Below are positions 28,234-52,802 of a stretch of 64,000 bases of DNA, piece by piece. Position 1 is the stretch's first letter; each line of letters begins with the position of its first letter. Source of the stretch: an uncultured Bacteroidota bacterium. GTDB taxonomy: Bacteria > Bacteroidota > Bacteroidia > Chitinophagales > Chitinophagaceae. The stretch covers positions 62,001 to 126,000 of the forward strand of contig CAINUN010000016.1 of the NCBI GenBank assembly GCA_903853805.1, written 5' to 3'. Position numbers and translations under genes: made by a program. The notes under the pieces were generated by a model. It did no database searches. It worked only from the letters and a program-made list of their open reading frames with translations, and was not told the DNA's origin.

Positions 28234-28261
28234 TTTTTTTAAAGAAAATTTCCCGAATCAT
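28234..28261 (+). repeat. leader shared with the 52.6 kb array
   Basis: TTTTTTTAAAGAAAATTTCCCGAATCAT, compare TTTTTTTAGGGAAATTTTCCGAATCAT at 52646-52672. Confidence 0.75.
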
Positions 28262-28271
28262 AGAACCTGCG

Positions 28272-28500
28272 TATGCCAATTGAAGGAAAACAACTGTTTG
28301 GATGCAATTGGTATATGCCAACTCAAAGAAAACAACAGTTTGGATGCAATTGGTATATGCCAACTCAAAGAAAACAACAGTTTGGATGCAATTGGTATAT
28401 GCCAACTCTAGGAAAACAACTGTTTGGATGCAATTGGTATATACCAACTCTAGGAAAACAACTGTTTCCCTTCAATTGGTATATACCAATTGAAGGGAAA
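28272..28500. repeat. 42-bp tandem repeat array, family A1 (5 full units plus partial)
   Basis: Units start at 28272, 28314, 28356, 28398, 28440, 28482; consensus TATGCCAACTCTAGGAAAACAACTGTTTGGATGCAATTGGTA; units 2 and 3 identical. Confidence 0.95.
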
Positions 28501-28505
28501 GACGC

Positions 28506-28690
28506 CGAACGCGCAGATAGGCATAAAACAAATTACTTATCGCACCCCGAACGCGCGGATAGCCATAAAACAAATCATGTATCGTACTCCGAACGCGCGG
28601 ATAGGCATAAAACAAATTATTTATCGCACTCCGAACGCGCGGATAGGCATAAAACAAATTATTTATCGTACTCCGAATGCTCGGATAGGG
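28506..28690. repeat. 42-bp tandem repeat array, family A2 (4 full units plus partial)
   Basis: Units start at 28506, 28548, 28590, 28632, 28674; consensus CGAACGCGCGGATAGGCATAAAACAAATTATTTATCGCACTC. Confidence 0.95.
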
Positions 28691-28768
28691 AAACATACTT
28701 GATAATGACGACGTAGGCACAGCCTAACGCCGAACTATTAGGATAGAAGCTACGGCGAACTGAGTGAA

Positions 28769-30526
28769 TTATTTATTCTCTTTCTCCAAACTTGCCTTTT
28801 TTTCTGCCACTTTCTTGAAGTAGGTTTGGTATTTAGGCTCGTCAGTCATGTAGAAAATAGCTTCTCGTTTTTTGACACACTTTTCATTGATTTCTTCTTT
28901 GGTCACAAATTCCATTTTGACGTTTGCTTTCTTCCAAACATAGGTTTTGGAGGAAAGAATGATTTTAAATTCACTTCCATAACTACAACTAACCGTATCA
29001 TAAGTAATTTTGATACTTGTTGGCGGCGCTATTTTTCGGTTGATGGCTTTGTAGAAAGTAGTATCAGTCCTTGCAGAAAACTGCATGAGTTTATTGTTAT
29101 CAAACAACATTTCTATGTTTCTGAAATAACCAACACTCCAAATATCACAAGCAGACTCAATCAGCATTTTATAACCCGGAACAAATCGTGCACGATTGAA
29201 TCTACCTGAATCTGTTTTTAAATTTTCATTGGGATTTGCAATTACTTCTGCATGATAATTCCAAGGTAAAGGAGGGCTTCGATGTTTCCAATTACTAAAA
29301 ACAACTTGTCCTTGATAATATTCCTTGTTTATTCTCTGATAATCTTGAACAAAAGAATCAAACTCTGATTTCCCAATCAGATAATATTTCCCAAGTACAC
29401 CAAAACCAAAATCCTGCTTATAAGACTTTGGTGATTTTAGGTCGGCAATTGCTCTTTTATGTGGTGAGTCTTTTGAATGTTGTGATAACCATTTGCCTAA
29501 ATCTGACAATGTAGCGCCGTCCAAAACCCTAATATTTCCAACAAAGAAGTACTTGCTTAAAACTGAACCTTGATTAGTTCCTATGTTTCTAGCTTCCATT
29601 TTTTTTCTGAAATCATCTAATGATTCCATTCCTAATTTGGCTCTTTGATCATTGATTATTTTTTCAGAAGCTTCATCAAGATATTCCACGTAAGTTTTAT
29701 TGTCATAAAAAAAACCATTTACAAAAAGTGGAAATGAAATAGTGGTATTTCTCAACTTTACGGAGTCTGATTTAGGACTTTCATTTAATAGAAATGCAAA
29801 ACTGTGAAGTTCAAAATCGAAATTCAAAACAGCTTCATATAAGAACGTATCCAACAAGTGTGAAGGTTTACCCCCATAGGCACCTGCATTATGATGTAAA
29901 ATGATGATGTCGTAACCTATTGATGGGGCAATATCAAAATCATTCAATTGATTTCCCAAAGTCACTTCATTTTGTACACCATTTTTTTTGAACAATTGCA
30001 ACAGTCTTGCTGCATTAATAGAATCTACTGTATAGGTAGAGTCCGTCATGTAAGCACCATCATTTAATTTAGTATAGTATAACCTTACACCTCTATCCCA
30101 GTCCATCATTTTATGAATAGAATTAGCTAAGGGTCTTGAAGAAAAAGTATCGTTTGGGTATTTCTTAAGTAGTCTATGAATCTCTTGCAGGTCTTCTCCT
30201 TGATAGAACTTTAGAATTTTGTTTTGCAAATAAACTTTACCCAAACCACGAGCTAATAATTTTGAAAAATACTTTTCTGCTAATGGGTATTTTTTGGTGT
30301 CCATTGCAGCAAAAAAAGCGTTCAATAAATCTTTGCTGAAAGATTTATTAGAATTGATGGCAAAAGCTTTTTGAAAGAAAGTATTTGCTGTTTCAAAGTT
30401 GCTATCGCAAATAGCCAACTCTGCAAGGTTGGTATTTTTATAATAGTCTAAGTTGGTAGATTGGGCTTTTAATTGGGTAATAACTACCAATAAAAAAATA
30501 AAAATTGAGGGTGATTTTCTCATCAA
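28769..30526 (-). CDS. hypothetical secreted protein
   Basis: 585-aa ORF, signal peptide FIFLLVVITQLKAQ; N-terminal region TPR-like. Confidence 0.7.
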   Translation of the reverse strand: MMRKSPSIFIFLLVVITQLKAQSTNLDYYKNTNLAELAICDSNFETANTFFQKAFAINSNKSFSKDLLNAFFAAMDTKKYPLAEKYFSKLLARGLGKVYLQNKILKFYQGEDLQEIHRLLKKYPNDTFSSRPLANSIHKMMDWDRGVRLYYTKLNDGAYMTDSTYTVDSINAARLLQLFKKNGVQNEVTLGNQLNDFDIAPSIGYDIIILHHNAGAYGGKPSHLLDTFLYEAVLNFDFELHSFAFLLNESPKSDSVKLRNTTISFPLFVNGFFYDNKTYVEYLDEASEKIINDQRAKLGMESLDDFRKKMEARNIGTNQGSVLSKYFFVGNIRVLDGATLSDLGKWLSQHSKDSPHKRAIADLKSPKSYKQDFGFGVLGKYYLIGKSEFDSFVQDYQRINKEYYQGQVVFSNWKHRSPPLPWNYHAEVIANPNENLKTDSGRFNRARFVPGYKMLIESACDIWSVGYFRNIEMLFDNNKLMQFSARTDTTFYKAINRKIAPPTSIKITYDTVSCSYGSEFKIILSSKTYVWKKANVKMEFVTKEEINEKCVKKREAIFYMTDEPKYQTYFKKVAEKKASLEKENK

Positions 30527-30924
30527 CTCTTACCCCAATACCACTCATCCTCCTTGGAAACAGCTTCTTTTTGTTTCCAATAATCGGCAGTAACTACTTT
30601 GCCATCAAGGGTTTTGAGCTCGCGGTTGTACACGGCATTGACCATGCTAAAAGATACATCAGTTACGCCCACGGTAAAGGTTTCAGGGAGTTTTACTTCG
30701 GGGGCTGCTTCAACAGGTGCAGGTGTTTCGCCTTCGGCTACGGGTTTTGGTGCAGGCTTAGGTGCTGCTTTTGGTGGTGGACTTGCCACCACTACTACAG
30801 TAAAAAGGTTATGTTCTAATAATGTCTTTAAAAAAGAAACACGTTCGGGCGTGCAATTCTTTTCAACGATGGCGCATTTTACATCACCAAGATCTTCGAA
30901 ACCATGATTCGGATTGAGTGCCAT
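30523..30924 (-). CDS. conserved hypothetical protein with Pro/Ala-rich linker, adjacent to nuoN
   Basis: 133-aa ORF, closely spaced with nuoN; PPPKAAPKPAPKPVAEGETPAPVEAAPEV linker. Confidence 0.7.
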   Translation of the reverse strand: MALNPNHGFEDLGDVKCAIVEKNCTPERVSFLKTLLEHNLFTVVVVASPPPKAAPKPAPKPVAEGETPAPVEAAPEVKLPETFTVGVTDVSFSMVNAVYNRELKTLDGKVVTADYWKQKEAVSKEDEWYWGKS

Positions 30925-30926
30925 AA

Positions 30927-32336
30927 TTATTTTCCTGCTAAAGTGGTTATGTGTTCAAATAATCCGCTTACAAATCCTGTGGCAATGACGCCTGCCAAAC
31001 AAATAATCAAAGCCAAGCGAAGCGGTAAACTTCCTTTGAGTGAAGCAATAGGTTGGTCGTTGTTGTCTATAAAAATGGCTTTCACCAAGCGCAAATAATA
31101 ATAGAGCGAAATGACCATGTTCATTACTGCAACAATGACAAGCAAATAATCACCTTTGCTAGCACCTGCCGTAACGAGGAACATTTTACCAAAGAAACCT
31201 GCTGTTGGCGGAATGCCTGCCAACGAAAAAAGACAAATAGCAATGACCCAAGAAGCAAATTTATTGTTGGTATAAAAGCCTTTGAAATCGTTGATGTTTT
31301 CTTTGCCTGTTTGTGAAGACACCAAGGACACCACACCAAATACACCGAGATTGGAAAAGGTGTAAATAATGAGGAAGTAAATCGCAGCTGAAATGCCCAT
31401 GATGCTCGTAGAAGATATGCCAAGCATGATGTAACCAACCTGCGCAATAGAAGAAAAGGCAAGGAAGCGTTTGATGTTATCTTGACGGATGGCAAATAGA
31501 TTGCCGACAGTAATGGTAACGAGAATGCTTAGGTAAAGCACATGGTACCAAGTATGTTCGAAATTGGGGAATACTTTATAAAGCGCAGTGATGAAAATGA
31601 AGACTATAGAGCCTTTTGAAATCACAGAAAGATAGGCAGTAACGGGTGCAGGTGCCCCTTCATAAACATCGGCAGTCCATAAATGGAATGGCACTGATGA
31701 AAGTTTGAAAGCAAAACCCGAGAAGATGAAGAGGAAGGCAAGCATTTGCAATTTGCTCGTGCTGAGTTGTGGCGCCATTTCGCTGAAATTTAAAGTGCCC
31801 GTAGTGCCATACAACATAGAAACACCAAACAACAAAATGCAAGAAGCAAAAGCAGATGACAAAATCATTTTCACAGCAGACTCAGATGATTTTGTTTTGT
31901 GCAAATCATAATTACACAAGGCTGCTAAAGGAATGCTTGATAACTCAAGTCCGAGATAGAACATGAGGAAGTTGCCACTCGAAATCATGAAATCCATTCC
32001 AAGTAAAGTGCATAATAACAGAATAAAGAACTCAAGGGTATTATCGTTTTCCTTCAAATAATCGAAGGCAAACAGGGAGATTATAAATGTGCCAAGATTG
32101 AGGATACTCTTTTCTAGAAAAATAAGTTCATTGGTTTGGTACATGCCATTGAACAAACTGCCTTCGGTATTGCAGCAAAAACCCCAAAGGAAGTTGGCTA
32201 ACAATAAAATGTTGACGAAATAGAGAAGGCTGGTGTTGGACTTAATGCCATCCCATACTTTCAATATCAGCAATAGGAAAATAATACCCGTAAGTATCAT
32301 TTCCGATTTCATGACTAATAAAAACTCAGTACCCAT
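30927..32336 (-). CDS. nuoN: NADH-quinone oxidoreductase subunit N
   Basis: Proton-pumping antiporter-like subunit, operon position; KLSSVPFHLWTADVYEGAPAPVTAYLSV. Confidence 0.95.
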   Translation of the reverse strand: MGTEFLLVMKSEMILTGIIFLLLILKVWDGIKSNTSLLYFVNILLLANFLWGFCCNTEGSLFNGMYQTNELIFLEKSILNLGTFIISLFAFDYLKENDNTLEFFILLLCTLLGMDFMISSGNFLMFYLGLELSSIPLAALCNYDLHKTKSSESAVKMILSSAFASCILLFGVSMLYGTTGTLNFSEMAPQLSTSKLQMLAFLFIFSGFAFKLSSVPFHLWTADVYEGAPAPVTAYLSVISKGSIVFIFITALYKVFPNFEHTWYHVLYLSILVTITVGNLFAIRQDNIKRFLAFSSIAQVGYIMLGISSTSIMGISAAIYFLIIYTFSNLGVFGVVSLVSSQTGKENINDFKGFYTNNKFASWVIAICLFSLAGIPPTAGFFGKMFLVTAGASKGDYLLVIVAVMNMVISLYYYLRLVKAIFIDNNDQPIASLKGSLPLRLALIICLAGVIATGFVSGLFEHITTLAGK

Positions 32337-32367
32337 TTATAAATGCTTTCAGTTTCTTGCTAAAAAA

Positions 32368-33894
32368 TTATTTACCTGCTATTCCTCTTGTAATATTTTC
32401 CATAATCACACCCGTATCAGGACCAATCAAATCGTTTAATAAAAACGGCGCCATACCAATTATCAGAATGCTGACCATAAGTACTACAGATGCTAATCTT
32501 TCATTCCAACTTGCATCTTTAAACCCTAAGAATTCTTGATTTTTGATAGGACCCATTGCGGTAGAACCAACGGCTCTTAAAATGTAAACTGCAGTCACCA
32601 CAATTGAAGCACAGGCAAGAATGGTAGCTACTCTGTAATAAGTTTCTCCATGTTGCCAACCACCCACAAAAACCGTCATTTCAGCTACAAATCCACTTAA
32701 TCCAGGCAAGCCTAGAGAACACAAACCTGCCAACACAAATATGGTCATGATAAAAGGAATTGTCTTCAGTAAACCGCCTAACTGCGCTACAATACGGGTA
32801 TGAGTTCTTTCATAAATCATTCCAATGGCTGCGAAGAAAAGGGCTGTCATTAAACCATGTGAAACCATTTGTAAAACAGCACCAGTAATAGCCGTTTTGG
32901 TCAACATGCCAATACCAAAAATCACAAATCCACAGTGGCTCACAGAAGAATAAGCATTGATGTATTTCAGGTCAGTTTGCATCAATGTTGCAAATGCACC
33001 GTAAATGATAGCGATGGTTGAAAGCAAGATGATTATCCAGGAATATTCGTGTGCTGCTTCGGGCATTAAAAAAGTTGCTACTCTTAGACATCCATACCCC
33101 CCTAATTTCATAGAAATTCCTGCAAGGAACATAGATGCTGCTGTAGGTGCTGAAGAGTGCCCATCAGGCGCCCAAGTGTGAAATGGAAACATGGCAGTGA
33201 ACACTCCAAATCCAACAAACAAGAAAGGGAAAATGATGCGTTGAATTTCAATTGGGAAATGCATTTTAGCTAATAAAAGCAGATTGAATGTGTGGGCACC
33301 TTCTCCTGTATCTGAATTCAAATACAAACAAAGCATACCAATTAACACCAAAGCAGATCCACCCATTAACATTAAGGCCAATTTCATGGCGCTGTATTCT
33401 TTCTTGCCGCTTCCCCAAATGCCTATCAATAAGAATTTAGGAATAACCGCTACTTCTAAAAAGAAGAAAAGAGCAAATAAATCGAGGGAAATAAAGAAAC
33501 CGTAAGCACCCATGCTCAACAAAGCAATGAGAAAGAAAAACTCTTTAGTGAGTTTGGTAACATTCCAAGAAACCAATACGCCTGCTAATACCACCACAGC
33601 AGTCAATAAAATCATGGCGATGGAGATGCCATCCACGCCAACATAATATTCAATGTTCAAACTACTGAACCAAGAATGATGGGCTTCAAAAAGCATAGCA
33701 GCTTTGTTTCCTGCAGTTCTTTCTTTGTTGTAAGCCAAGAGCAATTCAACCGAATAGCCCAGTTGAATAACCGCTCCGATAAAAGCCATCCATCTTGCTT
33801 GTGCTTTAGGAACGAGCAGAACAGCTACAGCTGTAAGCAAAGGAATGAGTAATAATATACTTAGGTTGATCATATAGTAATTTTCAAACGCCAA
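32368..33894 (-). CDS. nuoM: NADH-quinone oxidoreductase subunit M
   Basis: MFPFHTWAPDGHSSAPTAASMFLAGISMKLGGYG. Confidence 0.96.
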   Translation of the reverse strand: MAFENYYMINLSILLLIPLLTAVAVLLVPKAQARWMAFIGAVIQLGYSVELLLAYNKERTAGNKAAMLFEAHHSWFSSLNIEYYVGVDGISIAMILLTAVVVLAGVLVSWNVTKLTKEFFFLIALLSMGAYGFFISLDLFALFFFLEVAVIPKFLLIGIWGSGKKEYSAMKLALMLMGGSALVLIGMLCLYLNSDTGEGAHTFNLLLLAKMHFPIEIQRIIFPFLFVGFGVFTAMFPFHTWAPDGHSSAPTAASMFLAGISMKLGGYGCLRVATFLMPEAAHEYSWIIILLSTIAIIYGAFATLMQTDLKYINAYSSVSHCGFVIFGIGMLTKTAITGAVLQMVSHGLMTALFFAAIGMIYERTHTRIVAQLGGLLKTIPFIMTIFVLAGLCSLGLPGLSGFVAEMTVFVGGWQHGETYYRVATILACASIVVTAVYILRAVGSTAMGPIKNQEFLGFKDASWNERLASVVLMVSILIIGMAPFLLNDLIGPDTGVIMENITRGIAGK

Positions 33895-34276
33895 TATTCA
33901 ATTCTTCTAAAACAATATTTTTTAAGTCTGTTGCAGCATCAATACAACAACCTACATTTTCTACAGCAAGACAATATTTACCATCGCATTGTTCTCCATG
34001 AAGTCCTTTGCATTTCAAAGCGGAAATGGGAATACTTCCAAAAGACTCATTGGAAATAATGCATAAATCCATGAGTTGTTCGAGACTCATCAACTCATTA
34101 CTTTGAACGCCTTTTGACAGCAAGTATTGAATCATTAAATGTCTCATGGAAGAACGCAAATTCTGGCAAGCTGATAGAGTAACCACATCTTCATGAGGAC
34201 GATTGATTTCCTTTTGTGCTAAAGCCAATTCTTGTTCGGCTTGATGAATGGCGTTTTGAAGTTGTAGATTGTTCAT
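33884..34276 (-). CDS. uncharacterised Cys-rich protein encoded between nuoL and nuoM
   Basis: 130-aa ORF overlapping nuoM start; CKGLHGEQCDGKYCLAVENVGCC. Confidence 0.7.
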   Translation of the reverse strand: MNNLQLQNAIHQAEQELALAQKEINRPHEDVVTLSACQNLRSSMRHLMIQYLLSKGVQSNELMSLEQLMDLCIISNESFGSIPISALKCKGLHGEQCDGKYCLAVENVGCCIDAATDLKNIVLEELNIGV

Positions 34277-34288
34277 TTATTCTAATTT

Positions 34289-36220
34289 TTAAGTCCAGAA
34301 ATAAATAAACAATAAAACAAATCCAAGCACACCTGCAAAATAATAGGCTGCATATTGCTGCACTTTTCCCGATTGAAGTCCTTTTATTAATAAAGAAACT
34401 TGCATAGAAATAGTTGCCAACAAATTCATGAAACCATCCACAATGTTTTTATCAAACCAAGCCGCAGGACGACCAATTAGGTTGAATACAATTTTCTTGG
34501 TGATGAACAAATAAAGTTCGTCAATATAAAATTTGCGATAGGCAGCCGTATACAAACCGCCAATGCTAGCAGCCAATTTATCAGGTGCCGTATTTTCTTT
34601 TTTGTAGAATGAATAAGCAAGTAAAATACCACCAAGAGCCAAGGCAACGGGAGCTACAGAAAAACTTAAATGGAATTCGGTGAGTAATTGCTTACCATCA
34701 GCGGTAACAAAATTGCCAAATGGAATGAAACCTACTAGGATGGACAATAAAGCCAAGAAAAGCAAAGGCAATTTCATGGTTAATGGTGCTTCGCCATGGT
34801 GTTCATCGTTATGACCATGAAATGATTTGTTCCAAAAAATATTAAAGTATAAACGGAACATGTAAAAAGCCGTAATTGCAGCAGTAAGAATAGCGATACA
34901 AAAAACTAATTTATTGGTATGGAAAGCTGCTTGTAAAATTTCTTCTTTACTAAAGAAACCTGCAAATGGTGGAATCCCGGCAATAGCCAAACAAGCAATA
35001 AGGAAAGTGATATGCGTAACAGGCATTAGCTTCCTCAACCCGCCCATATCTTTCATGTCATTACTGTGTACATAGTGAATTACTGAACCTGCACCTAAGA
35101 ATAACAATGCTTTGAACATAGCATGGGTAAACAAATGGAACATAGAAGCCATGTAGCCCAAGCCATTTTCACCACCATATCTTGCTACACCTAATGAAAA
35201 CATCATGTACCCAATTTGCGACATGGTGGAATATGCTAACACGCGTTTAATATCTGTTTGTGTGCATGCAATGATTGCGGCAAAAAAGGAGGAAGTAATA
35301 CCGACCCATGTCACTACATCCATTGCGTTTACCGAACTGCTAAAAACTGGGAACAATCTTGCTACTAAAAACACACCGGCAACAACCATAGTTGCAGCAT
35401 GAATTAAAGCAGAAACAGGAGTTGGACCTTCCATGGCATCAGGCAACCAAATATGTAACGGGAACATGGCAGATTTTCCTGCACCACCCATAAACACTAG
35501 TAACAAACCCCAGGTCAACGCAGAACATCCTAAGAAAGAAGCTGCTGTGATGGAATGTAATTGAGTGCTATCAGTTGTCAATCGACTAATTAAGGTTTGA
35601 AAGTCAAGCGTTTCCCCATAAAAAGACAATACCAAAATACCTATTAAAAAACCAAGGTCTGCAAATCGGGTAACGATAAACGCTTTTTTAGATGCAGCAA
35701 CGGCAGAAGGTTTGTCAAAATAATAACCAATCAACAAATAAGAAGAAACACCTACTAATTCCCAAAACATATATATCTGGAAAATGTTGGAAGACATCAC
35801 CAAACCCAACATAGAGAAAGTGAACAACCCAAGAAAAGAATAATAAGTAGCAAAACGTTCCTCTCCATGCATATAACCAAGGCTATAAAAATGCACCATT
35901 AATGAAACCAAAGTAACTACTACCAACATCATTACAGAAATTGGGTCGAGTAAGATGCCAATATCAATGGAAATACCTGATGCAAATTGCAGCCAAGTCA
36001 ATTTATAAGGAACTATTTGTTGATAAATGTCGTTCACTTTACCAACTACAAAAAAGTAATCATATGCAACAGTGAGCGATAAAATAAATGAACCCAACAA
36101 AGCAAGCGTTCCTAACGCACCACATAAATTGGGAAAGTACTTTTTACCACCTAATGCAATGATTAAAAAACTAATTAGCGGTAAAAGAGGAATGAGTATA
36201 ATGAGGTTAGTACTAAGCAT
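34289..36220 (-). CDS. nuoL: NADH-quinone oxidoreductase subunit L
   Basis: KSAMFPLHIWLPDAMEGPTPVSALIHAATMVVAGVFLVAR. Confidence 0.97.
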   Translation of the reverse strand: MLSTNLIILIPLLPLISFLIIALGGKKYFPNLCGALGTLALLGSFILSLTVAYDYFFVVGKVNDIYQQIVPYKLTWLQFASGISIDIGILLDPISVMMLVVVTLVSLMVHFYSLGYMHGEERFATYYSFLGLFTFSMLGLVMSSNIFQIYMFWELVGVSSYLLIGYYFDKPSAVAASKKAFIVTRFADLGFLIGILVLSFYGETLDFQTLISRLTTDSTQLHSITAASFLGCSALTWGLLLVFMGGAGKSAMFPLHIWLPDAMEGPTPVSALIHAATMVVAGVFLVARLFPVFSSSVNAMDVVTWVGITSSFFAAIIACTQTDIKRVLAYSTMSQIGYMMFSLGVARYGGENGLGYMASMFHLFTHAMFKALLFLGAGSVIHYVHSNDMKDMGGLRKLMPVTHITFLIACLAIAGIPPFAGFFSKEEILQAAFHTNKLVFCIAILTAAITAFYMFRLYFNIFWNKSFHGHNDEHHGEAPLTMKLPLLFLALLSILVGFIPFGNFVTADGKQLLTEFHLSFSVAPVALALGGILLAYSFYKKENTAPDKLAASIGGLYTAAYRKFYIDELYLFITKKIVFNLIGRPAAWFDKNIVDGFMNLLATISMQVSLLIKGLQSGKVQQYAAYYFAGVLGFVLLFIYFWT

Positions 36221-36223
36221 GAC

Positions 36224-36538
36224 TTAAAATTTCATTGTATTTGTTTCTTCTACATCAATAGTCTTGTAATTCCGATATAGGTTGATGATGATGGCAATGG
36301 CAACAGCTGCCTCAGCAGCAGCAATAGTGATGATGAATATGGTAAAAAACAATCCATCAAGCTTGTCTGGAAACAAAAACTTGTTGAATACGATAAAATT
36401 GATATTGATGCTATTCAAAATCAATTCTATTGCCATAAGCATGGTAATGAGATTTCTTCGAGTAAGAAAACCGTAAACGCCAATGAAAAACAGCGCACAG
36501 CTTACAAACAAGTAATGATTCAAACTGATTTCGTTCAT
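36224..36538 (-). CDS. nuoK: NADH-quinone oxidoreductase subunit K
   Basis: GVYGFLTRRNLITMLMAIELILNSINI. Confidence 0.95.
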   Translation of the reverse strand: MNEISLNHYLFVSCALFFIGVYGFLTRRNLITMLMAIELILNSININFIVFNKFLFPDKLDGLFFTIFIITIAAAEAAVAIAIIINLYRNYKTIDVEETNTMKF

Positions 36539-36583
36539 ATTCTATTTCATAAACAGAAGCTTTGAAGCTTCTCTGTTATTAAA

Positions 36584-37099
36584 TTATTTTTCAGTCTTTA
36601 CTTTCATGGCAATGACAATACAGCCAATCAATGCTGCTAACAATAACATACTCACCACTTCAAAAGGAAGAATATAGCCGTGTTCAGTTGTGCTTAGCAT
36701 TTGTGAACCAATGTTGTTGGCACTTGGTTCAATGGCAGCAGCATTACTTTTTATAAAAACTTGTTCTTTGATGAATAAATAGGTTAGTGCACAACCCAAA
36801 ATAGCAGCTAAACCACTAAAAACAGCTCGAATAAGTACTGGTTTTTCCATATCTCCTCCTGAACCGTGAGTAAGGAAAATAGAAAAAATGATTAATACAA
36901 CAATGCCACCAACATATACCACGATTTGTACGGCTGCAATAAATTCATATTCTAGCAAGAAATACAACCCTGCAATGCCAATTAGGGAGAACAAAAGAAA
37001 TACCGCTGAACGGAAAATTTTTCTTGAGGTAACGGCAAGCAATCCTCCTCCGAGAATGACAGCCGAAAGCAAATAAAATAGGATGGTTGCTACATTCAT
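36584..37099 (-). CDS. nuoJ: NADH-quinone oxidoreductase subunit J
   Basis: FIAAVQIVVYVGGIVVLIIFSIFLT. Confidence 0.95.
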   Translation of the reverse strand: MNVATILFYLLSAVILGGGLLAVTSRKIFRSAVFLLFSLIGIAGLYFLLEYEFIAAVQIVVYVGGIVVLIIFSIFLTHGSGGDMEKPVLIRAVFSGLAAILGCALTYLFIKEQVFIKSNAAAIEPSANNIGSQMLSTTEHGYILPFEVVSMLLLAALIGCIVIAMKVKTEK

Positions 37100-43472: not shown

Positions 43473-43495
43473 ATGGTCGGTTGAATTTCAAATTT

Positions 43496-44221
43496 CTACT
43501 CTTCTTCATCTTGTTGTTGCTCTTTCCCCTTGTGTTTTCCCTTCGATTTTTTAGCAGGCTGAGGTTCTTCAATGCCTTCTTGGTCCATAATTTCGTGCGG
43601 AAGTTTTTTGTGTGTTTTAGCTTCGGGTTCATCGCCCATCACAGCACTTTTGTTTTTAGCATTTACTACCCCTTCTTCTTCATCTTCTTCCTGCTTATTA
43701 TTTGTTTGTTTTTGAGGAGGAGGGATATCATCTTCTCCTGATGTTGCAATGGCATTATTGATTTCAAGCAGGAAAAACTTTTCTTTTTGCCCAAATTCTA
43801 TGGTTTGCTGGTTGACTCTTGCAATAGCCTCAGCATCAGTTGGTTTCACAGCCTCAGCAGGAACCATCACGTTCTTTAAGTATTGCTTTTCAATTTGAAG
43901 ATAGTTGGCAATAGTGGTCAACAGTCCGCGTTCATCGCCTTGTGCCATGATTTGTTTCATGTTGGCAATGTGCATGTCAAGAAAACGTTCAAGCAGGTGT
44001 CTTTGTGGTATTAGTAAAGCAAGATTTTTGTTTTGCACAGCTTCGTCAAAAGCCTTGTTCCAATTAAGCCTTGCCGTTTCGCTTTGTTCTTTTATTTGCA
44101 ATAGCCCACGGTTGGTATAATCTTGAGCATTAGAAAAAGAAAAGGCGAATAATAATAGTGGGAGTAATAACCTGCGCATCATCAGCATGTTTAAGAAACA
44201 AATATACCTTGTTTGAAACAA
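43496..44221 (-). CDS. hypothetical exported protein with charged low-complexity C-terminus
   Basis: LLLPLLLFAFSFSNAQ signal; EEDEEEG and KKSKGKHKGKEQQQDEEE tail; true start may be an internal ATG near 44190. Confidence 0.7.
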   Translation of the reverse strand: MFQTRYICFLNMLMMRRLLLPLLLFAFSFSNAQDYTNRGLLQIKEQSETARLNWNKAFDEAVQNKNLALLIPQRHLLERFLDMHIANMKQIMAQGDERGLLTTIANYLQIEKQYLKNVMVPAEAVKPTDAEAIARVNQQTIEFGQKEKFFLLEINNAIATSGEDDIPPPQKQTNNKQEEDEEEGVVNAKNKSAVMGDEPEAKTHKKLPHEIMDQEGIEEPQPAKKSKGKHKGKEQQQDEEE

Positions 44222-44319
44222 TCAAAAAGCAGTAAATAGTTTTTCAAATGAAAGCATTGTCAAAAAAAAATCTTGTCAAGCATATTCAACCTACTTTTGC
44301 GCCGAAATCAAAAAAAAAT

Positions 44320-46170
44320 ATGGGAAAAGTAGCCATCAACATAGCTACCGGAAGTTTACAAACCAAAGACACCATTGTGGGCATTGACCTTGGCACCACC
44401 AATAGTCTTATTGCCATTGTGAGAGAAGACACTAAAGCACCAATTGCTTTACGTGAAATTGATGGGCTTACACTTGTTCCTTCCATTGTTTACTTTGATG
44501 AGTTCAACAATCCTTTGGTGGGAACTGCTGCACGCGAAAAATTGATAGAAGCGCCAGAGCGCACTATTTATTCGGCAAAAAGACTCATGGGTAAATCCTA
44601 TAAAGATGTAAGCGAACATGCTGCTTCTTTTGCCTATAAAATCATTGACGACAATACCGATTCTTTATTGAAAGTACAGGTGAATGATAAATTCTACACA
44701 CCTATTGACCTTAGTGCAGAGATACTTCGTGAATTGAAAAAGCGTGGTGAGCATATCCTTAAGACATCTATCACAAAAGCAGTCATCACGGTTCCTGCAT
44801 ACTTCAACGATGCACAAAGACAAGCCACTCGTGATTCAGGAAAATTGGCCGGATTGGATGTATTGCGCATTGTGAACGAACCAACCGCCGCAAGTCTTGC
44901 TTATGGATTGGGAGTAAGCGCTGATGAAGAAAAAACGATTGCTGTTTATGACCTTGGTGGTGGCACTTTCGATGTTTCAATTTTACACATCATCAACGGC
45001 ATTTTTGAAGTCTATTCTACACACGGCGACACTTATTTAGGTGGCGATGATATGGATAGATTAGTAGCAGATTTTTTCAAAAAACAATTGCCAAGCAAAG
45101 ATGAGCATGACAAAAAACACTTGCAAGAGCTAAGATTGAAAGCCGAGGAAGCGAAGAAATATTTGAGTAATAATGAGTTCTTTGAATCGGAAATTGACGG
45201 ACAAAAAATTCTCATCAATAAAGAACAATTCAACAGCTTAATACTTCCATTAGTAGAGCGCACATTGAATAGTTGCAGGCTTGCTTTGAAAGATGCAACC
45301 TTAACACCTGATAAAATTGATGCAGTAGTGATGGTAGGCGGCTCGACTCGAGTGCCATTGGTAAAAGAAAAAGTAAAATCATTTTTTGGAAAAGAATTGT
45401 TTGACCAATTGAATCCCGATGAAGTAGTGGCATTAGGTGCTGCAGTTCAAGCAGATATTTTGGCAGGCAACAATACCGAAATGCTCTTACTCGATGTGAC
45501 CCCACTATCTCTTGGATTAGAAACCATGGGAGGATTGATGGATGTGCTTATTCCACGCAATTCAAAAATCCCTACCAAAGCAGGTCGCCAATACACAACG
45601 CAAAAAGATGGACAAGGCGGAATGCGCATTTCAGTTTTTCAAGGAGAAAGAGATTTGGTTCAAGACAACAGAAAGCTTGCTGAATTCAACCTTACAGGCA
45701 TTCCCGCAATGCCTGCAGGTTTGCCTAAAGTGGAAGTGAGTTTTCTCATAGATGCAGATGGCATTCTAAAAGTTAGTGCTAAAGAACTACGCAGTGGCAT
45801 TCAACAAACTATAGAAGTGAAACCTCAGTATGGATTGACGGACGAACAAGTGGAGCAAATGCTGATGGATTCGCTCACACATGCTAAAGATGATATTGCC
45901 ACTCGTGCACTTGTTGAAGCGACAACAGAAGCCACTCAAATGTTGGAAACCACTGAAACGTTTTTAGAAAAACATAAGGACATGTTAACGGAAGAAGAAG
46001 TCAACATTACGATGGCAAAAATGAAGGATGTAACACAAGCTATATTCAACAAAAACAAAAACCTTATTCAAAAAGAAATGGAAACCCTCAACGAAGTTTC
46101 ACGTCCTTTTGCTGAAAGGGTAATGGATGCGGCTTTGAAAGATGCAATGAAGGGAAAAAAGATTGTGTAG
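44320..46170 (+). CDS. hscA: Hsp70-family chaperone, HscA-like
   Basis: [35 protein letters not shown]; start [12 protein letters not shown]. Confidence 0.88.
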
Positions 46171-46203
46171 TGAAAACCTTAACTGTTTGCAGTTCAAAAA
46201 AAA

Positions 46204-46965
46204 TCAACCAAATATCAACGTCATCAAACCTGCAATAACACCAAGAAGAATTGCAAAGACTTTTGGAATAGTCATTGCATGATGTCGGGTACCACTTTCA
46301 AAAAATATAGTTGTAGAGATGTGGATGAATGCGCCCGCAACTATTGGAATAATCCAAATGATGATATTGCTGAGGTGTAAATAATGCTTCCCTAGATTCT
46401 CTGAAAGAAAAGAAGCTATTGGTGTAATCAATGCAAAGAAAAGCAACACAGTGAAGGCTCTTTGTTTTCCCTTTTGTGAAATAACTAAAGCAGTAAGCAA
46501 GATAGCTTCTGGTAATTTGTGAGCAGCAACAGCAAGGTATAATGCCGTTTCTGTTGCACCCATTCTATAGTTGAAGCCTAATGGAATACCTTCCATAAAT
46601 GCATGTAGCGATAGTCCAAACAAAACAGCGGTAAGTGGTAAAGCTGCTTGTGTATGTAAATGGTGCTCATGACCATGATGATGATGATGACCATTTGTAT
46701 GGGAGTGTCCATGTTCTACTCCATGAGTCAATCTTTGGATAATAAATTGTAAGAAAAACCCAGCAAGGACTAAAGCCCCTGCTTCATGTCCGCCTAGCTC
46801 AGTAAAAGTTTCAGGTATTAGGTGAAGTAAAGTAATACTCAATAAAAATGAACCTGAAAAAGCCAAAAGATAATTAGTGCCCTTTTCGTTTACAGTAGTT
46901 ACCAAAAGTGGAATACTTCCACCAATTAGGGTAATGAAAAAAAGTAACAAGTTGAAAATTGACAT
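46204..46965 (-). CDS. ZIP-family metal transporter
   Basis: His-rich loop HGVEHGHSHTNGHHHHHGHEHHLH; TM motif AFMEGIPLGFNYR and AVAAHKLPEAI. Confidence 0.9.
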   Translation of the reverse strand: MSIFNLLLFFITLIGGSIPLLVTTVNEKGTNYLLAFSGSFLLSITLLHLIPETFTELGGHEAGALVLAGFFLQFIIQRLTHGVEHGHSHTNGHHHHHGHEHHLHTQAALPLTAVLFGLSLHAFMEGIPLGFNYRMGATETALYLAVAAHKLPEAILLTALVISQKGKQRAFTVLLFFALITPIASFLSENLGKHYLHLSNIIIWIIPIVAGAFIHISTTIFFESGTRHHAMTIPKVFAILLGVIAGLMTLIFG

Positions 46966-47045
46966 TTTTATGATTGTAGCCTCTAAGAAACCGAACAAAA
47001 TTACTTTTTTTAGTACAAGTTACAGCATGATAAAACTCATCAAAA

Positions 47046-47666
47046 TTGTTTCTGAATATCAATAGCAATATTTTTGAGCCAAACAGATATTTATTGAGAG
47101 CCTCAATCTTCATCCTTCTTTTCAGCGCCCTTTTCTTTTCTTGTAATAAAAAAGAAAAAGAAATGGCAACATTTACCGCCGAAAGCGGAACTTATTTCTC
47201 TATTCGTCAGTTTGCAAAAGATCAATTCGATTCTTTTTGGCAGCAACCATTTGGATTTGAAAAAACAGAAGTAATTAATGGAAAGAAAGACACTGTCTTA
47301 CTTGGTGGCTTAAGTATGGATTGGGGGTCTATTCTTCAAACATTTTTTGATGCAGACATTAGCGACACTAAAAACATTGGCAAATATGAGTTTACTGTTA
47401 TCAATGAAGACGCAACCATGTCGAAGATTTATGATTACGAAGCTAAAGACCCGAAATTGTTTACCCAAAAAACACAGATAGTCATAGATCCTTTTACAGA
47501 AAGAATCAAAGCTGTTTATATAGAGACGCACAAAGAAGATTTTTGGAAAAAGGAAAGTCAAAAGTTGTTTTATGTGCCATTGAAAGTGATTCAAATTCAA
47601 AAGTTCGAATCACTCCGTCTTGGAAAAGATTTGAGCACTCGCACCGAATATCATTTCATGAACTAA
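47046..47666 (+). CDS. putative lipoprotein
   Basis: Lipobox-like LFFSCNKKEKE; alternative (TTG) start. Confidence 0.6.
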   Translation: MFLNINSNIFEPNRYLLRASIFILLFSALFFSCNKKEKEMATFTAESGTYFSIRQFAKDQFDSFWQQPFGFEKTEVINGKKDTVLLGGLSMDWGSILQTFFDADISDTKNIGKYEFTVINEDATMSKIYDYEAKDPKLFTQKTQIVIDPFTERIKAVYIETHKEDFWKKESQKLFYVPLKVIQIQKFESLRLGKDLSTRTEYHFMN

Positions 47667-47673
47667 TCCCCTC

Positions 47674-49497
47674 ATGAACCGCGAAGTCTTTCAAAATATT
47701 GTCTCTTCCATTCCGCATCAACCAGGTTGCTACAAATATTTTGATGAAAGCAAGCAATTGTTGTACGTAGGAAAGGCAAAAGACTTACGCAAGCGAGTAA
47801 GTTCTTATTTCAACAAAACGTTAGATAGTTTTAAAACACGAAGACTAGTTTCACTTATTCACAGTATTGAGTTTACCATAACCGACTCCGAACATGATGC
47901 ATTCTTGTTAGAGAATTCCCTCATCAAACATTATCAGCCCAAATTCAACATTAGCCTAAAAGACGACAAGACTTATCCCTATGTAGTGATAAAGAAAGAG
48001 CATTTTCCAAGAGTTTTTTTTACTAGAAAAGTAATTCGAGATGGCTCGGAATATTTAGGTCCTTACACAGGTGTTTTTCGTGCACGTGAGTTGATGGAGA
48101 TTATCAAACAAAGTATTCCGCTCAGAAATTGTACGCTCAATCTTTCGAAAGAAAATATTGACAAAGGCAAATTCAAAGTCTGCCTTGAATATCATCTTGG
48201 TAATTGCAATGGACCTTGTCAAGGTTTTCAAACTGAAGAAAATTACAAACAAGACCTGCAACAGATAAGGCATATTTTGAAAGGAAATACTGCTGAAGTC
48301 ATTCGACACCTCAAACAGCAAATGAACGATTGTGCAGCTAACCTAGAATTTGAAAAAGCAGCCATTCTGAAAGAAAAAATTGCATCCTTACAACAATACG
48401 AGGTTCGTTCTACGGTTGTCAACCCCCATTTAGGCGACCTTGATGTAGCCAGCATTTTGAGCGACGACAAGCTGTCCTTTGTCAATTACTTGCGCGTTAT
48501 TAATGGCAGTGTAGTGTATGCTAAGACTTTGAAAATTGATAAGCAATTAGAAGAAACGGACGAAGAAATTTTGTCGTTGGCATTGGCTAGAATGCGCGAA
48601 ACTTTTCACAGCAATTCGCCTGAAGTCATTGTGCCATTTAAAGTTTATGTAACCGAACCGAACACAGTCATTACCATCCCTAAAATTGGTGACAAGAAAA
48701 AACTCCTCGATCTTAGCATCAAAAATGCATTGTTGTTTAAAGATGAAATGCGAAAGAAAAATGCGTTGATGCTCACCACACCTTCTAAAGAAAAAGACTT
48801 GTCAATCTTAGAAGAATTGCAGACTGTATTGCATTTGAAAGAACTCCCAATTCATATTGAATGCTTCGACAACTCCAATTTTCAAGGCTCTTTTCCAGTG
48901 GCTGCAATGGTTTGTTTTCGGGATGCACAACCTTTTAAAAAAGACTATCGTCATTTTCATATCAAAACGGTGGAAGGCATCAACGATTTTGCCTCAATGG
49001 CTGAAATTGTTTATCGACGCTACAATAAATTAATTGAAGAGGAAAAAGAATTGCCTCAATTGGCCATAATAGATGGGGGCAAAGGTCAATTGAGTGCAGC
49101 CATGGAAAGTGTTCGGAAATTGGGTATTGAAAACCGATTGACTTTAATTGGATTAGCAAAGCGCGAAGAGTCTATTTTCTTTGTCGGAGATAAAGAACCC
49201 ATTCAACTTCCTTTTGACAATCCTGCTCATTTACTCATTCGCCGCATTCGTGATGAAGTGCACCGTTTTGGCATTACTTTTCATAGAGAAACAAGAAGCA
49301 AGGGCACCATTAAAAACAACCTTGAAAACATTCCTGGCATTGGCGAAAAAACGGCTACCGACTTGCTCAAGGCTTTTCGTTCTGTTAAAAACATTAAAAC
49401 AATGACTGAAAGAGAATTGACAAAGGTCGTTGGCGCATCTAAAGCAAGAATTGTCTTCCACTATTTTCATCCTAGAGAGGAAGAACCAACTTTGTGA
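47674..49497 (+). CDS. uvrC: excinuclease ABC subunit C
   Basis: GIY-YIG domain (GCYKYFDESKQLLYVGKAKDLRKRVSSYF), UvrC endonuclease region, C-terminal HhH. Confidence 0.97.
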   Translation: MNREVFQNIVSSIPHQPGCYKYFDESKQLLYVGKAKDLRKRVSSYFNKTLDSFKTRRLVSLIHSIEFTITDSEHDAFLLENSLIKHYQPKFNISLKDDKTYPYVVIKKEHFPRVFFTRKVIRDGSEYLGPYTGVFRARELMEIIKQSIPLRNCTLNLSKENIDKGKFKVCLEYHLGNCNGPCQGFQTEENYKQDLQQIRHILKGNTAEVIRHLKQQMNDCAANLEFEKAAILKEKIASLQQYEVRSTVVNPHLGDLDVASILSDDKLSFVNYLRVINGSVVYAKTLKIDKQLEETDEEILSLALARMRETFHSNSPEVIVPFKVYVTEPNTVITIPKIGDKKKLLDLSIKNALLFKDEMRKKNALMLTTPSKEKDLSILEELQTVLHLKELPIHIECFDNSNFQGSFPVAAMVCFRDAQPFKKDYRHFHIKTVEGINDFASMAEIVYRRYNKLIEEEKELPQLAIIDGGKGQLSAAMESVRKLGIENRLTLIGLAKREESIFFVGDKEPIQLPFDNPAHLLIRRIRDEVHRFGITFHRETRSKGTIKNNLENIPGIGEKTATDLLKAFRSVKNIKTMTERELTKVVGASKARIVFHYFHPREEEPTL

Positions 49498-49555
49498 TGA
49501 TTATCAACCAAGTCAGTGCTTGCTTATTTACCTTTGCATAAATATTACCAAATTC

Positions 49556-49957
49556 ATGTCCGAAAATAAACCCCCACTTCTGCCCAGTATTTTAAAAATG
49601 AAATGCCCTAACTGCCGTAAAGGAAACATGTATTTGCAGTCATCTGTTTTCCCAATGAATACAATGATGCAAATGCCTGAACGATGCAGTGAATGTGGTC
49701 AAAAAATGGAATTGGAAGTAGGATTTTATTACGGCACTGGCTATGTCAGTTATGTATTGACTGTTGCAATTATTGCTATTTGCTTTATTAGTTATTGGTT
49801 AATTATTGGCATGTCGTCAAAAGACTATAGCATCTTTTATGCATTGGGCACAGCCATAGGCATAGCCCTTTTGTTGCAGCCGCTCATCATGCGTTATAGT
49901 CGCGTCATTTACCTCTACATGTTTGTGAAGTTTGGTAAAGGACGCGCATCTCGATAA
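49556..49957 (+). CDS. DUF983 family protein
   Basis: KCPNCRKGNMY..CSECGQKME plus two TM helices. Confidence 0.85.
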   Translation: MSENKPPLLPSILKMKCPNCRKGNMYLQSSVFPMNTMMQMPERCSECGQKMELEVGFYYGTGYVSYVLTVAIIAICFISYWLIIGMSSKDYSIFYALGTAIGIALLLQPLIMRYSRVIYLYMFVKFGKGRASR

Positions 49958-49962
49958 GCCTT

Positions 49963-50616
49963 TTACTTCTTGAGTTTTTCTTTAAAAACCTTTTGAAATT
50001 TCTCCAACTTAGGTTTGATGACAAACATGCAATAAGGCTGACTGCCATTTTCGCTATAATAGTTTTGATGATACTCCTCTGCCTTATAAAACACAGTGAA
50101 AGGAGAGATTTCTGTTACCACATTTGAAGGATAAGCATGTTCTTCGTTGATGCTCTTTTTATATATCTCTGCCTTTTGTTTTTGTTCATCATTATGATAG
50201 TAAATAACACTTCGGTATTGCGTACCTACATCTTCGCCCTGACGATTGAGTTGAGTAGGGTCATGTGCCCCCCAAAAGGCTGCTAACAACTCATCAAAGC
50301 TAATCACTGCAGGATTATAATAAATATTAGTCACTTCAGCATGCCCTGTTTGTCCTGTGCACACTTGTTTGTAAGTAGGATGTTCCACTTGTCCACCACT
50401 AAAGCCTGATTCTACCTTTACTACTCCCTTTAATTGTTGAAACTGTGCTTCTACGCACCAAAAGCAACCTGCGCCAAAAGTTGCGGTATCTAATTTCATG
50501 TTTGTGGTTGATTCGTTCATAGGATTGTGTTGATGATTATTCTTTTTTTGAGCACATGCAAATAAGTGAATACTGCTGAAAGCAAGCAATAAAATGATTT
50601 TCAAGGTACATTTCAT
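49963..50616 (-). CDS. msrA: peptide methionine sulfoxide reductase MsrA
   Basis: TATFGAGCFWCVEAQFQQLKGV; EEYHQNYYSEN; start MKCTLKIIL. Confidence 0.95.
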   Translation of the reverse strand: MKCTLKIILLLAFSSIHLFACAQKKNNHQHNPMNESTTNMKLDTATFGAGCFWCVEAQFQQLKGVVKVESGFSGGQVEHPTYKQVCTGQTGHAEVTNIYYNPAVISFDELLAAFWGAHDPTQLNRQGEDVGTQYRSVIYYHNDEQKQKAEIYKKSINEEHAYPSNVVTEISPFTVFYKAEEYHQNYYSENGSQPYCMFVIKPKLEKFQKVFKEKLKK

Positions 50617-50768
50617 GTTGGGGAAATTATTTTTAGCATAACGTAGGAAACGCGAAAATAGTTTACTGCATTGCCTTTGCAACATTATTTTAACATCAAC
50701 CACAAAAAAATGTGGCTTCTTAGCAAATTCTTTTTTGAAAATTAAATGGCTAGGTTAATTTTGGCCTT

Positions 50769-50853
50769 GGAGAGATGGCAGAGCGGTCGAATGCGGCGGT
50801 CTTGAAAACCGTTGACTGTCAAAGGTCCGGGGGTTCGAATCCCTCTCTCTCCG
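50769..50853 (+). tRNA. tRNA-Ser (anticodon UGA)
   Basis: Acceptor stem GGAGAGA/TCTCTCC, anticodon loop CTTGAAA, long variable arm, T-arm GGTTCGAATCC. Confidence 0.95.
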
Positions 50854-50897
50854 CAAGGAGAATTCGAAAGCAAATGCTATCTTATTCTACAGGTCTT

Positions 50898-50932
50898 AAA
50901 AGAGGTTGCTGAAAAGCAGCCTCTTTTTTTTT
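50898..50932 (+). terminator. rho-independent terminator after tRNA-Ser
   Basis: AAAAGAGGTTGCTGAAAAGCAGCCTCTTTTTTTTT. Confidence 0.85.
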
Positions 50933-50991
50933 ATTTTCTTTCTTAACGGTCGCATTTCTTTGGTTGTTATTTTTGCCACTATTTCAATAAA

Positions 50992-52590
50992 ATGCTTCGC
51001 ACCGATTTTCTCGTTATTGGCTCTGGTATTGCAGGACTAAATTTTGCCATCAAAACTGCTAAACGCTTTCCTGATCAAACCATCACGATTCTCACCAAAG
51101 TCAATACTGACGAAACCAATACGAAATATGCACAAGGCGGTATTGCTGTGGTAAATGACCGTGAAAAAGACAGTTTTCAAAAGCATATTGAAGACACTTT
51201 GGTTGCCGGTGACGGATTATGCAATCAAAAAGTAGTAGAGATTGTAGTGAACGAAGGACCTGAACGTGTGGAGGAGATGATTGACCTTGGCACTCAGTTC
51301 GACAAAGATATTGAAGGCGATTTCCTTAGAGGCAAAGAAGGCGGGCATTCCGAATACCGCATCCTTCACCATAAAGATATTACAGGATTTGAAATGGAGC
51401 GTGCATTAGTGGAAGAAGTGGCAAAATATCCCAATATTAACATCCACAACCATTGGTTTGTTATTGACATCATTACGCAGCATCATCTTGGATATTTGGT
51501 CACTAAATCAACTCCCAATATTGAGTGCTATGGCGTTTATGCCTTGAACCTTCAAACCAATGAGATTGAAAAGATTCTTAGTAAAATAACCGTCATGGCA
51601 TCGGGCGGAACAGGACAAGCTTATCGCACCACCACTAACCCAAAGATTGCCACCGGCGATGGTATAGCCATGTTTTACAGAGCTAAAGGACGAATTGAAA
51701 ATATGGAGTTCATTCAGTTTCACCCCACAGCTTTGTACCAAGCAGGTGTGAGCCCTTCTTTCTTAATTACCGAAGCCGTAAGGGGCGATGGTGGCATTCT
51801 TAGAAATAAAGAAGGCGAAGCATTCATGCAACGTTATGACCCTCGTGCCGACCTTGCCCCACGTGATATTGTAGCCCGTGCTATTGATAATGAAATGAAA
51901 CGCACCGGAACTGAATCTATTTTCTTGGATTGCAGACACATGGAATTAGAAAAGTTTAAGGCGCACTTTCCAAATATTTATGATAAGTGCATGAGTGTGG
52001 GCATTGATGTGATGAAGAACATGATTCCTGTGGCGCCTGCAGCACATTATTGTTGTGGAGGAATTAAAGTAGATGAGATTGGGCGTTCATCCATCACCAA
52101 CCTATATGCTTGTGGCGAGTGTAGCAGCACAGGACTTCATGGAGCCAATCGTTTGGCAAGCAATTCTCTGTTAGAGGCTTTGGTGTTTGCCCATCGATGT
52201 TCGGAAGATGCGGCAACTAGAATAGACAAGTTGCAGTTTAATGATGCTATCCCCGATTGGAATGCATCGGGCACCAACGACCCTCAAGAAATGATTCTCA
52301 TTACCCAAAGCCTTAAAGAACTCCAATTAATCATGAGCGATTATGTGGGCATTGTTCGCAATAATGTTCGTTTAGAACGAGCCATGCGCCGCATAGATTT
52401 ATTGCACGAAGAAACCGAAACGCTTTACCGCACCACCACTGCTTCACCGCAATTACTAGAATTAAGAAACCTGATTACCATTGGATTTTTAATAGTAAAA
52501 GGAGCACAGTTTAGAAAAGAAAGCCGTGGCTTGCATTACAATACTGATTTTCCAGAAAAAGCAGAGATGTTGCAGAATATCGTATTGTAA
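50992..52590 (+). CDS. nadB: L-aspartate oxidase
   Basis: FLVIGSGIAGLNFAIKTA; YAQGGIAVV; GANRLASNSLLEALVF. Confidence 0.95.
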   Translation: MLRTDFLVIGSGIAGLNFAIKTAKRFPDQTITILTKVNTDETNTKYAQGGIAVVNDREKDSFQKHIEDTLVAGDGLCNQKVVEIVVNEGPERVEEMIDLGTQFDKDIEGDFLRGKEGGHSEYRILHHKDITGFEMERALVEEVAKYPNINIHNHWFVIDIITQHHLGYLVTKSTPNIECYGVYALNLQTNEIEKILSKITVMASGGTGQAYRTTTNPKIATGDGIAMFYRAKGRIENMEFIQFHPTALYQAGVSPSFLITEAVRGDGGILRNKEGEAFMQRYDPRADLAPRDIVARAIDNEMKRTGTESIFLDCRHMELEKFKAHFPNIYDKCMSVGIDVMKNMIPVAPAAHYCCGGIKVDEIGRSSITNLYACGECSSTGLHGANRLASNSLLEALVFAHRCSEDAATRIDKLQFNDAIPDWNASGTNDPQEMILITQSLKELQLIMSDYVGIVRNNVRLERAMRRIDLLHEETETLYRTTTASPQLLELRNLITIGFLIVKGAQFRKESRGLHYNTDFPEKAEMLQNIVL

Positions 52591-52645
52591 GACTCCTTTT
52601 CTATAGAAGATAATACTTCCCCATTTCCCCTTTCTGCGCAAGCAA

Positions 52646-52672
52646 TTTTTTTAGGGAAATTTTCCGAATCAT
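52646..52672 (+). repeat. leader shared with the 28.2 kb array
   Basis: TTTTTTTAGGGAAATTTTCCGAATCAT. Confidence 0.75.
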
Positions 52673-52802
52673 GCAATCCGTTAGTACAGATTGGCAAAAT
52701 CGGAACCGAATAATGGGATCCGTTGCAACAGATTGTAAGAATCGGAACCGAATGAAGGAATCTGTCGCAACAGGTTGGAAGATTCGAAACCGAATCATGC
52801 AA
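52665..52802. repeat. 42-bp tandem repeat array, family B (3 full units plus partial)
   Basis: Units start at 52665, 52707, 52749, 52791; for example CGAATAATGGGATCCGTTGCAACAGATTGTAAGAATCGGAAC. Confidence 0.93.

Follow-up and report, generated by a model that had tools for sequence, protein, structure and literature searches.

Intergenic tandem arrays of unrelated sequence share a 21-bp length quantum in a Chitinophagaceae genome

The window, i.e. the whole stretch of 64,000 nucleotides analysed here, carries several intergenic tandem arrays, none of which is assigned to a strand. Three of them, A1, A2 and B, had been described in an earlier note as arrays of 42-bp units, and Tandem Repeats Finder detects all three; their repeat units are mutually unrelated. 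Array A1 (28272..28500; 42 x 5.5, 91% match) has a unit made of two inverted 21-bp halves (self-inverse p=0.024), and a related array is found at C50:37604-37752 (79% identity). Its 3' end is a perfect palindrome of 36 bp (28465..28500; 18 bp per arm, centre 28482.5), possibly a hairpin or a cruciform: the RNA fold of 28440-28520 gives a z of -6.3, and the palindrome is terminator-like on the minus strand (one found against 0.7 expected). Array A2 (28505..28689; 42 x 4.4, 90% match), whose units start with CCGAA, is self-inverse at p=0.050 and is devoid of RNA structure (z 0.36 for the fold of 28500-28640). The motif AAAGACGCCGAA lies at 28498-28509, one base away from the position first given, and its second copy (52825-52836), formerly placed just after array B, is in fact inside it, at the junction of units 4 and 5. 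No array of the window matches an Rfam family, the only Rfam match there being one tRNA, and CRISPR-type unique spacers are absent, the array units being contiguous.

Array B is longer than was first thought. The Tandem Repeats Finder call (52664-52802, 42 x 3.3, 78% match) agrees with the extent of the earlier note, but the array runs on to 52873 (52664..52873), since units 4 and 5, whose middle is swapped, retain the CCGAAT head and the length; it thus comprises five units of exactly 42 bp, starting at 52664, 52706, 52748, 52790 and 52832. Each unit consists of the CCGAAT head followed by a variable dyad whose centre falls between positions 20 and 21 of the unit; along the array, inverted matches of 11/18 return every 21 bp. 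In unit 5 the sequence AACCAACACCAGCTTTGGTGTTGGTT (52838..52863, no strand assigned) forms a strong predicted RNA hairpin (fold of 52790-52890: z -4.6 on the plus strand, -4.2 on the minus strand), which makes it a candidate transcript 3' end for nadB and/or the DUF1684 gene. A third array in the window, overlooked at first reading, is array C (23600..23917), located between two co-oriented genes of the plus strand encoding a DUF5686 and a GAF-domain protein. It is built of 21-bp monomers (~TAGCCCACAATGCTCGGGCTA) arranged in 42/63-bp higher-order blocks, with sharp self-match lags at 21/42/63/84. Two kin of 295 bp each were found (C19:37476-37770 and C103:23842-24137), and against both copies the array of the window shows a 21-bp gap.

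The leaders that precede the arrays at loci A (28182..28261, plus strand, 3' of rnr; CCCCATTTTCCCC ... TTTTTTTAAAGAAAATTTCCCGAATCAT) and B (52615..52672, plus strand; ACTTCCCCATTTCCCCTTTCTGCGCAAGCAATTTTTTTAGGGAAATTTTCCGAATCAT, its last bases being the head of repeat unit 1) are present where they had been reported. The B leader resembles C100:32876-32940 (89% over 65 bp, E 9e-17) and C93:19379-19452 (E 3e-6), the A leader matches C100 over 28 bp (96%, E 6e-6), and a diverged copy stands ahead of a 42-bp array on C52. By these similarities the leader is a genuine repeat, above chance. Among its five loci, the copies at A, B, C52 and C93 directly precede 42-bp units. The proposal that it defines the array class nevertheless has to be abandoned, because there is no array behind the copy on C100, so that the leader occurs in part independently of arrays, and because it is missing from the other arrays read out, including the second A1-family copy at C50:37604.

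A leader joined to a minisatellite recalls BrickBuilt, a MITE/minisatellite of Porphyromonas gingivalis with 23-nt tandem repeats, about two turns long, and a flanking leader (PMC4596501). Like our arrays, BrickBuilt belongs to the Bacteroidetes, is intergenic and species-private, combines short tandem repeats with a leader and exists in partial forms (PMC4596501). A non-autonomous transposon of this kind, mobilised by a transposase in trans, would account for the leader loci, three of which are directly followed by related 42-bp units, and for the reappearance of array C, in other sequence contexts, as a block of 295 bp. However, BrickBuilt has one repeat sequence in all copies, terminal inverted repeats on leader and tail, and a leader that is never repeat-less (PMC4596501), whereas the arrays described here have many unrelated units that share the period only and vary from locus to locus, one leader is array-less and most arrays are leaderless. 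Terminal inverted repeats were not found either: at five loci, the best matches did not exceed the best of 40 shuffles. We consider this origin improbable.

That two loci share a 42-bp period is no accident. The genome was sampled as stretches totalling 864 kb, plus a separate replicate of 140 kb. In the 864 kb, a threshold-free ranking gives 42, 84, 126, 21, 63 and 105 as the six strongest intergenic self-match lags, and the period is 21n (tolerance of about 1 bp per 42) in all 22 strong intergenic arrays, among which about 20 unrelated sequences are represented; the gap-tolerant Tandem Repeats Finder agrees. The idea of one period with a replaceable sequence thus extends to the genome as a whole, and an equal abundance of other periods was not seen. 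A first attempt at replication, restricted to complete intergenic regions within 3-kb loci, yielded one 14-bp array only, because most arrays sat at the locus edges; scanning the whole 3-kb loci gave five further non-heptamer arrays, all with lag 42. Genome-wide, the number of arrays is estimated at a hundred or so. The families are small: three loci for C, two for A1, and three for the B family plus one leader-only copy. Blocks of one to four monomers were amplified, and some whole blocks or leaders reappear at other loci.

The earlier note equated 42 bp with four helical turns; the length fits, but the actual quantum is half of that, 21 bp or two helical turns, as shown by some arrays of direct 21-mers and by the many 42-mers that consist of two inverted 21-bp halves. 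With 10.5 bp to the turn, no integer length shorter than 21 bp completes an integer number of turns. Arrays with periods of 10/11, 31/32 or 52/53 bp, lengths that likewise come close to whole turns, are almost absent. The lock is tight: even in arrays merely 55–70% identical the 21n peaks stay sharp, with background level at +-1, and next to the 22 arrays we counted only two single-base phase slips versus several hundred substitutions. Such locking suggests that a length ruler operates when the repeats are made or maintained.

As 21, 42, 63 and 84 are all divisible by 3, unrecognised coding repeats might produce such a series, and chance or an ordinary slippage of any period could be invoked as well. 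But 8/22 arrays have no open frame and the mismatches are not focused on one codon position, so that coding repeats are rejected; periods of 22, 41, 44 and 85 also occur, other multiples of 3 show no lag enrichment, and the same lag method finds no 21n peak in relatives or in E. coli. These explanations are hardly credible.

Dyad symmetry, assigned to each family in the earlier note, is real in A1, with its perfect arms, and in B, but not universal: one test finds it significant in 4/22 arrays. A self-inverse test is positive for 7/12 arrays of the 41–44-bp class versus 1/10 of the 21–22-bp class, the 7/12 with inverted 21-bp halves in 42-bp units corresponding to a Fisher value of 4e-5. Compensatory changes in the palindrome (covariation 0.400 versus 0.195+-0.042 when shuffled and <=0.121 when slid) are a property of family B only, not a general one. 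The first proposal, based on the position of both loci between convergent genes, was that they are terminators or REP/BIME-like elements, working at the ends of transcripts as hairpins in RNA or DNA. REP/BIME, GTAG-/CGTC-tagged palindromes, are indeed intergenic dyads of 20–40 bp, sometimes in tandem and with alternating orientation (PMC3733652), and the compensated dyad of family B together with the strong RNA folds of the A1 end and of B unit 5 goes in the same direction. Against it, 7/25 of the 21n arrays lie between convergent genes versus 33/119 of all intergenic regions >=300 bp, without any array preference for gene orientation; A2 does not fold, and a general terminator or RNA role is not supported, strong folding being seen in two individual palindromes; and most arrays of direct 21-mers are dyad-less. 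REPs moreover have one conserved high-copy sequence, tagged and tied to RAYT transposases (PMC3733652), while the families here count about one to five loci and share neither a REP sequence nor an Rfam family. The source genome has five weak Y1_Tnp matches, fewer and weaker than the array-poor genome G001, and the two Y1_Tnp loci inspected are without a 21n array; dispersal by RAYT appears doubtful, Y1/RAYT genes not tracking array abundance. Elements of this type are an unlikely explanation.

The arrays are largely private to this lineage: their density is ~29–36 per Mb in the source genome versus ~2 per Mb in sampled relatives, and a search for orthologous arrays in 149 further genomes of the family gave no DNA match for array C or for locus B. 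We read A1, A2, B and C as part of an intergenic minisatellite population that is specific to this lineage and built on a 21-bp module, born by duplication with a two-turn step, and give this reading a probability of about 45%. Slippage of a strand, or a switch of template, while DNA is replicated or repaired would both create and lengthen arrays, preferentially in steps of 21 bp (two helical turns). Re-pairing on the same strand would produce direct 21-mers; a strand switch at a dyad would place two 21-bp halves in inverted orientation, which makes a 42-bp unit, and could also be the source of the compensatory changes in family B, since template switching in imperfect palindromes yields such changes. 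No local function would be required of the resulting array. A locked period with free sequence agrees with this model, as do the private families; the difference in density fits a recent burst, the lack of coding and of orientation preference is expected of a mutational process, and a grouping of 21-mers into 42/63/84 blocks is what slippage or unequal exchange typically leaves behind. On the other hand, old arrays stay in phase despite their divergence, a state that pure duplication would not guard afterwards, the near absence of the other periods close to whole turns is not accounted for, and no enzyme or defect that could supply the ruler was found.

The protected phase would be better explained by a helically phased platform, in which arrays would be retained because the exact two-turn spacing aligns their bends, dyads or half-sites along a single face of the DNA. 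An architectural protein, guided more by geometry than by sequence, would coat or bend them, in nucleoid organisation or as a supercoil barrier or insulator. Family B, exactly 42 bp in 11/11 consecutive units (plus the single C93 unit) despite the swapped middle, its compensated dyads and the frequent inverted halves of the 42-bp units also suit such a platform. Yet congeners carry few such arrays, dyads are not general, a common motif is absent and no candidate protein was found; curvature by phased A-tracts was rejected, the AA/TT power at 10.5 bp (0.114) being no clearer than at the other harmonics of 21 bp (0.111 at 5.25 bp, 0.094 at 7 bp). This alternative is thus a serious one, though rather doubtful, and we slightly favour two-step duplication over selection for helical phasing. 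Whichever applies, it is tentatively conceivable that one process of this lineage, mutational or selective, makes or keeps arrays of arbitrary sequence at the two-turn quantum in about a hundred loci, blind to sequence but reading geometry.

Bacterial minisatellites are usually seen as products of slippage, with an arbitrary unit length. Here one genome holds tens of unrelated arrays under one length rule equal to two turns of B-DNA, with few in the sampled relatives: either slippage in replication or repair can be governed by a helical ruler, or some protein chooses its DNA for the spacing of the repeats and not for their sequence. The arrays resemble bacterial VNTRs and minisatellites by their units of tens of bp, their higher-order blocks and their species-private character, but a single genome-wide length quantum was not found for these in the literature searched; nor did our search, short of most subscription journals, find papers on 21/42-bp locking. 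Another comparable case is that of the heptameric SSRs of Xanthomonas and Nostoc, intergenic, diverse in sequence and restricted in period, for which polymerase geometry was proposed as the cause of the 7-bp bias (PMC4692102). Unlike these, the unit here is 21 bp, on average without 7- or 14-bp substructure (mean z in the 42-bp consensus units: -0.36 at lag 7 and 0.04 at lag 14), so that a heptamer origin (21 = 3 x 7) is rejected. Heptamer arrays do exist in relatives, as a separate class, and a 14-bp echo is present in A1.

Genes were called with a simple codon model in 864 kb of the genome carrying the window (GCA_903853805.1, 3.5 Mb in 106 contigs) and the strongest repeat lag, scored without gaps, in each of the 280 intergenic regions 80 bp or longer was compared with Markov shuffles. 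Thirty-eight arrays were detected, 22 of them strong (score of at least 40), with periods of 21 (five arrays), 22, 41 (two), 42 (nine), 44, 63 (two), 84 and 85 bp: all 22 equal 21 bp or a multiple of it (21n) to within about 1 bp per 42, and 21 satisfy a strict 21n rule, which chance would grant to 19% of lags. A threshold-free self-match sum over all sampled intergenic DNA puts 42, 84, 126, 21, 63 and 105 as its top six lags, and the gap-tolerant Tandem Repeats Finder leaves the period picture unchanged. A second sample (47 loci of 3 kb, 140 kb, chosen by an unrelated A+T-rich pattern) gave one 14-bp array and five arrays outside the heptamer (7/14-bp) class, all five at lag 42. Extrapolating from the samples, we estimate about 100-125 21n arrays in the whole genome. 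The earlier note held that the shared period exceeds coincidence; other periods are not equally common, and on that count the proposal survives strongly.

In the window, sequence check and repeat finding agree with the positions first proposed for A1 (28272-28500), A2 (28505-28689), array B (now extended to 52664-52873) and the leaders preceding loci A and B. Array B was rightly placed but made too short: five units of exactly 42 bp start at 52664, 52706, 52748, 52790 and 52832, the last two with the CCGAAT head of the others and a different middle. A third array, C (23600-23917), had been overlooked; flanked by co-oriented genes, it is built of 21-bp monomers grouped in 42/63-bp blocks. Pfam supports the flanking genes as previously named (an RNB domain for rnr; DUF1684), gives fumarate reductase/succinate dehydrogenase flavoprotein domains for the nadB-like FAD protein, and likewise supports DUF5686 and GAF. 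The arrays are non-coding. ORFs crossing them at 28273-28716 (+) and 23442-23903 (-), of 147 and 153 aa, are probably spurious, since a period multiple of 3 keeps an open frame open. Both other copies of array C (sampled stretches L138 and L139, around 1350-1960) have homologous sequence 3' of the array, which gives them the look of a single segmental duplication; the flanks of the window copy are unrelated to theirs.

The length quantum is 21 bp rather than 42. Direct 21-mers (e.g. in stretches L023, L148 and L152) give sharp lags at 21, 42, 63 and 84, lags 20 and 22 being at background. Self-inverse arrays consist of inverted 21-bp halves in pairs, with a dyad centre each 21 bp; self-inversion is significant in 7 of the 12 arrays with a 41-44-bp unit (Fisher 4e-5) and in one of ten in the 21-22-bp class. 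Across the twelve 42-bp units of family B (array B and its relatives on contigs C52 and C93) the head is retained, as is a dyad with co-changing arms (paired cells, 75%). Covariation reaches 0.400, versus 0.195±0.042 with shuffled partners and at most 0.121 with slid partners; the evidence for compensatory change is good but not conclusive, because sequence relatedness and repeat homogenisation weaken such statistics. As RNA, the palindrome at the end of A1 and unit 5 of B fold strongly; A2 does not.

The leader is truly a dispersed repeat, with five copies of about 55-65 bp. Four of them (A, B, C52 and C93) run directly into 42-bp repeats. The final bases of the leader (CCGAATCATGC) also form the head of the B-family unit; the first repeat therefore starts within the leader. 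No 42-bp repeats follow the fifth copy, on contig C100, and most arrays elsewhere have no leader, which weakens the tie to the arrays proposed earlier. Terminator/BIME and MITE models account for parts of family B or of the leader without covering the array class as a whole. Membership of REP/BIME fails on copy number and lack of common sequence, that of heptamer SSRs on substructure. Among known systems BrickBuilt of Porphyromonas gingivalis comes closest: it joins a leader, a minisatellite of 23-nt units and a tail in one element (PMC4596501). The terminal inverted repeats that define it were looked for at five loci here and not found. Within the open-access literature searched, we found no report of genome-wide 21n locking of unrelated intergenic arrays.

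With an identical whole-sequence scan applied to every genome, near-21n hits are 25 of 31 here (864 kb), 1 of 3 and 0 of 2 in the congeners G001 (400 kb) and G003 (270 kb), and 2 of 13 in other relatives (808 kb), with none in 100 kb of E. coli. In relatives 21-, 22- and 44-bp arrays are scattered, and 14-bp heptamer arrays commoner. A sample of 149 further genomes from the family holds no match to array C or to locus B; judged by such comparison, the array sequences are private.

The 22 arrays surveyed for phase carry hundreds of differences from consensus (831 if composite arrays are counted); their apparent indels occur as compensating pairs, and a flank search for out-of-phase continuations turned up no more than two slips of one base and a single half-unit shift. 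Substitutions usually outnumber spontaneous indels about ten to twenty times; so few slips suggest that the phase is protected, bearing in mind that array ends were defined ungapped and that homogenisation can purge misfit units. Two models are left. Selection for helical phasing, through a protein reading geometry, would explain both this protection and the dyads; we regard it as plausible, though less likely than not. The reading we slightly prefer, with a probability of about 0.45, is that slippage or template switching in this lineage yields 21n arrays: a step of two helical turns would produce 21-mers, direct or inverted, of arbitrary sequence. Such a duplication step would account for the unrelated sequences, their privacy, the lack of orientation preference and the higher-order blocks.

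Other repeats were seen as well. In relatives, intergenic heptamer arrays (e.g. GTGAATG, GGTTAGT), a different, already described period-restricted class, occur in G010 (L099 4396-4630; L098 1739-1814), in G003 (L196 3526-3675) and in stretch L065. G001 has intergenic repeats of 98, 54 and 107 bp (L085 14211-14412; L078 9288-11182) unrelated to 21n, and in G000 a 78-bp repeat, not 21n, adjoins a weak Y1 transposase (Y1_Tnp) match (L256 948-1099). A 44-bp array of G002 (L203 1934-2066) shows a clear dyad (TGAGCCGAATAGGAAACTTATTCGGCTCA) and is a possible counterpart, in another species, of the inverted-pair class.
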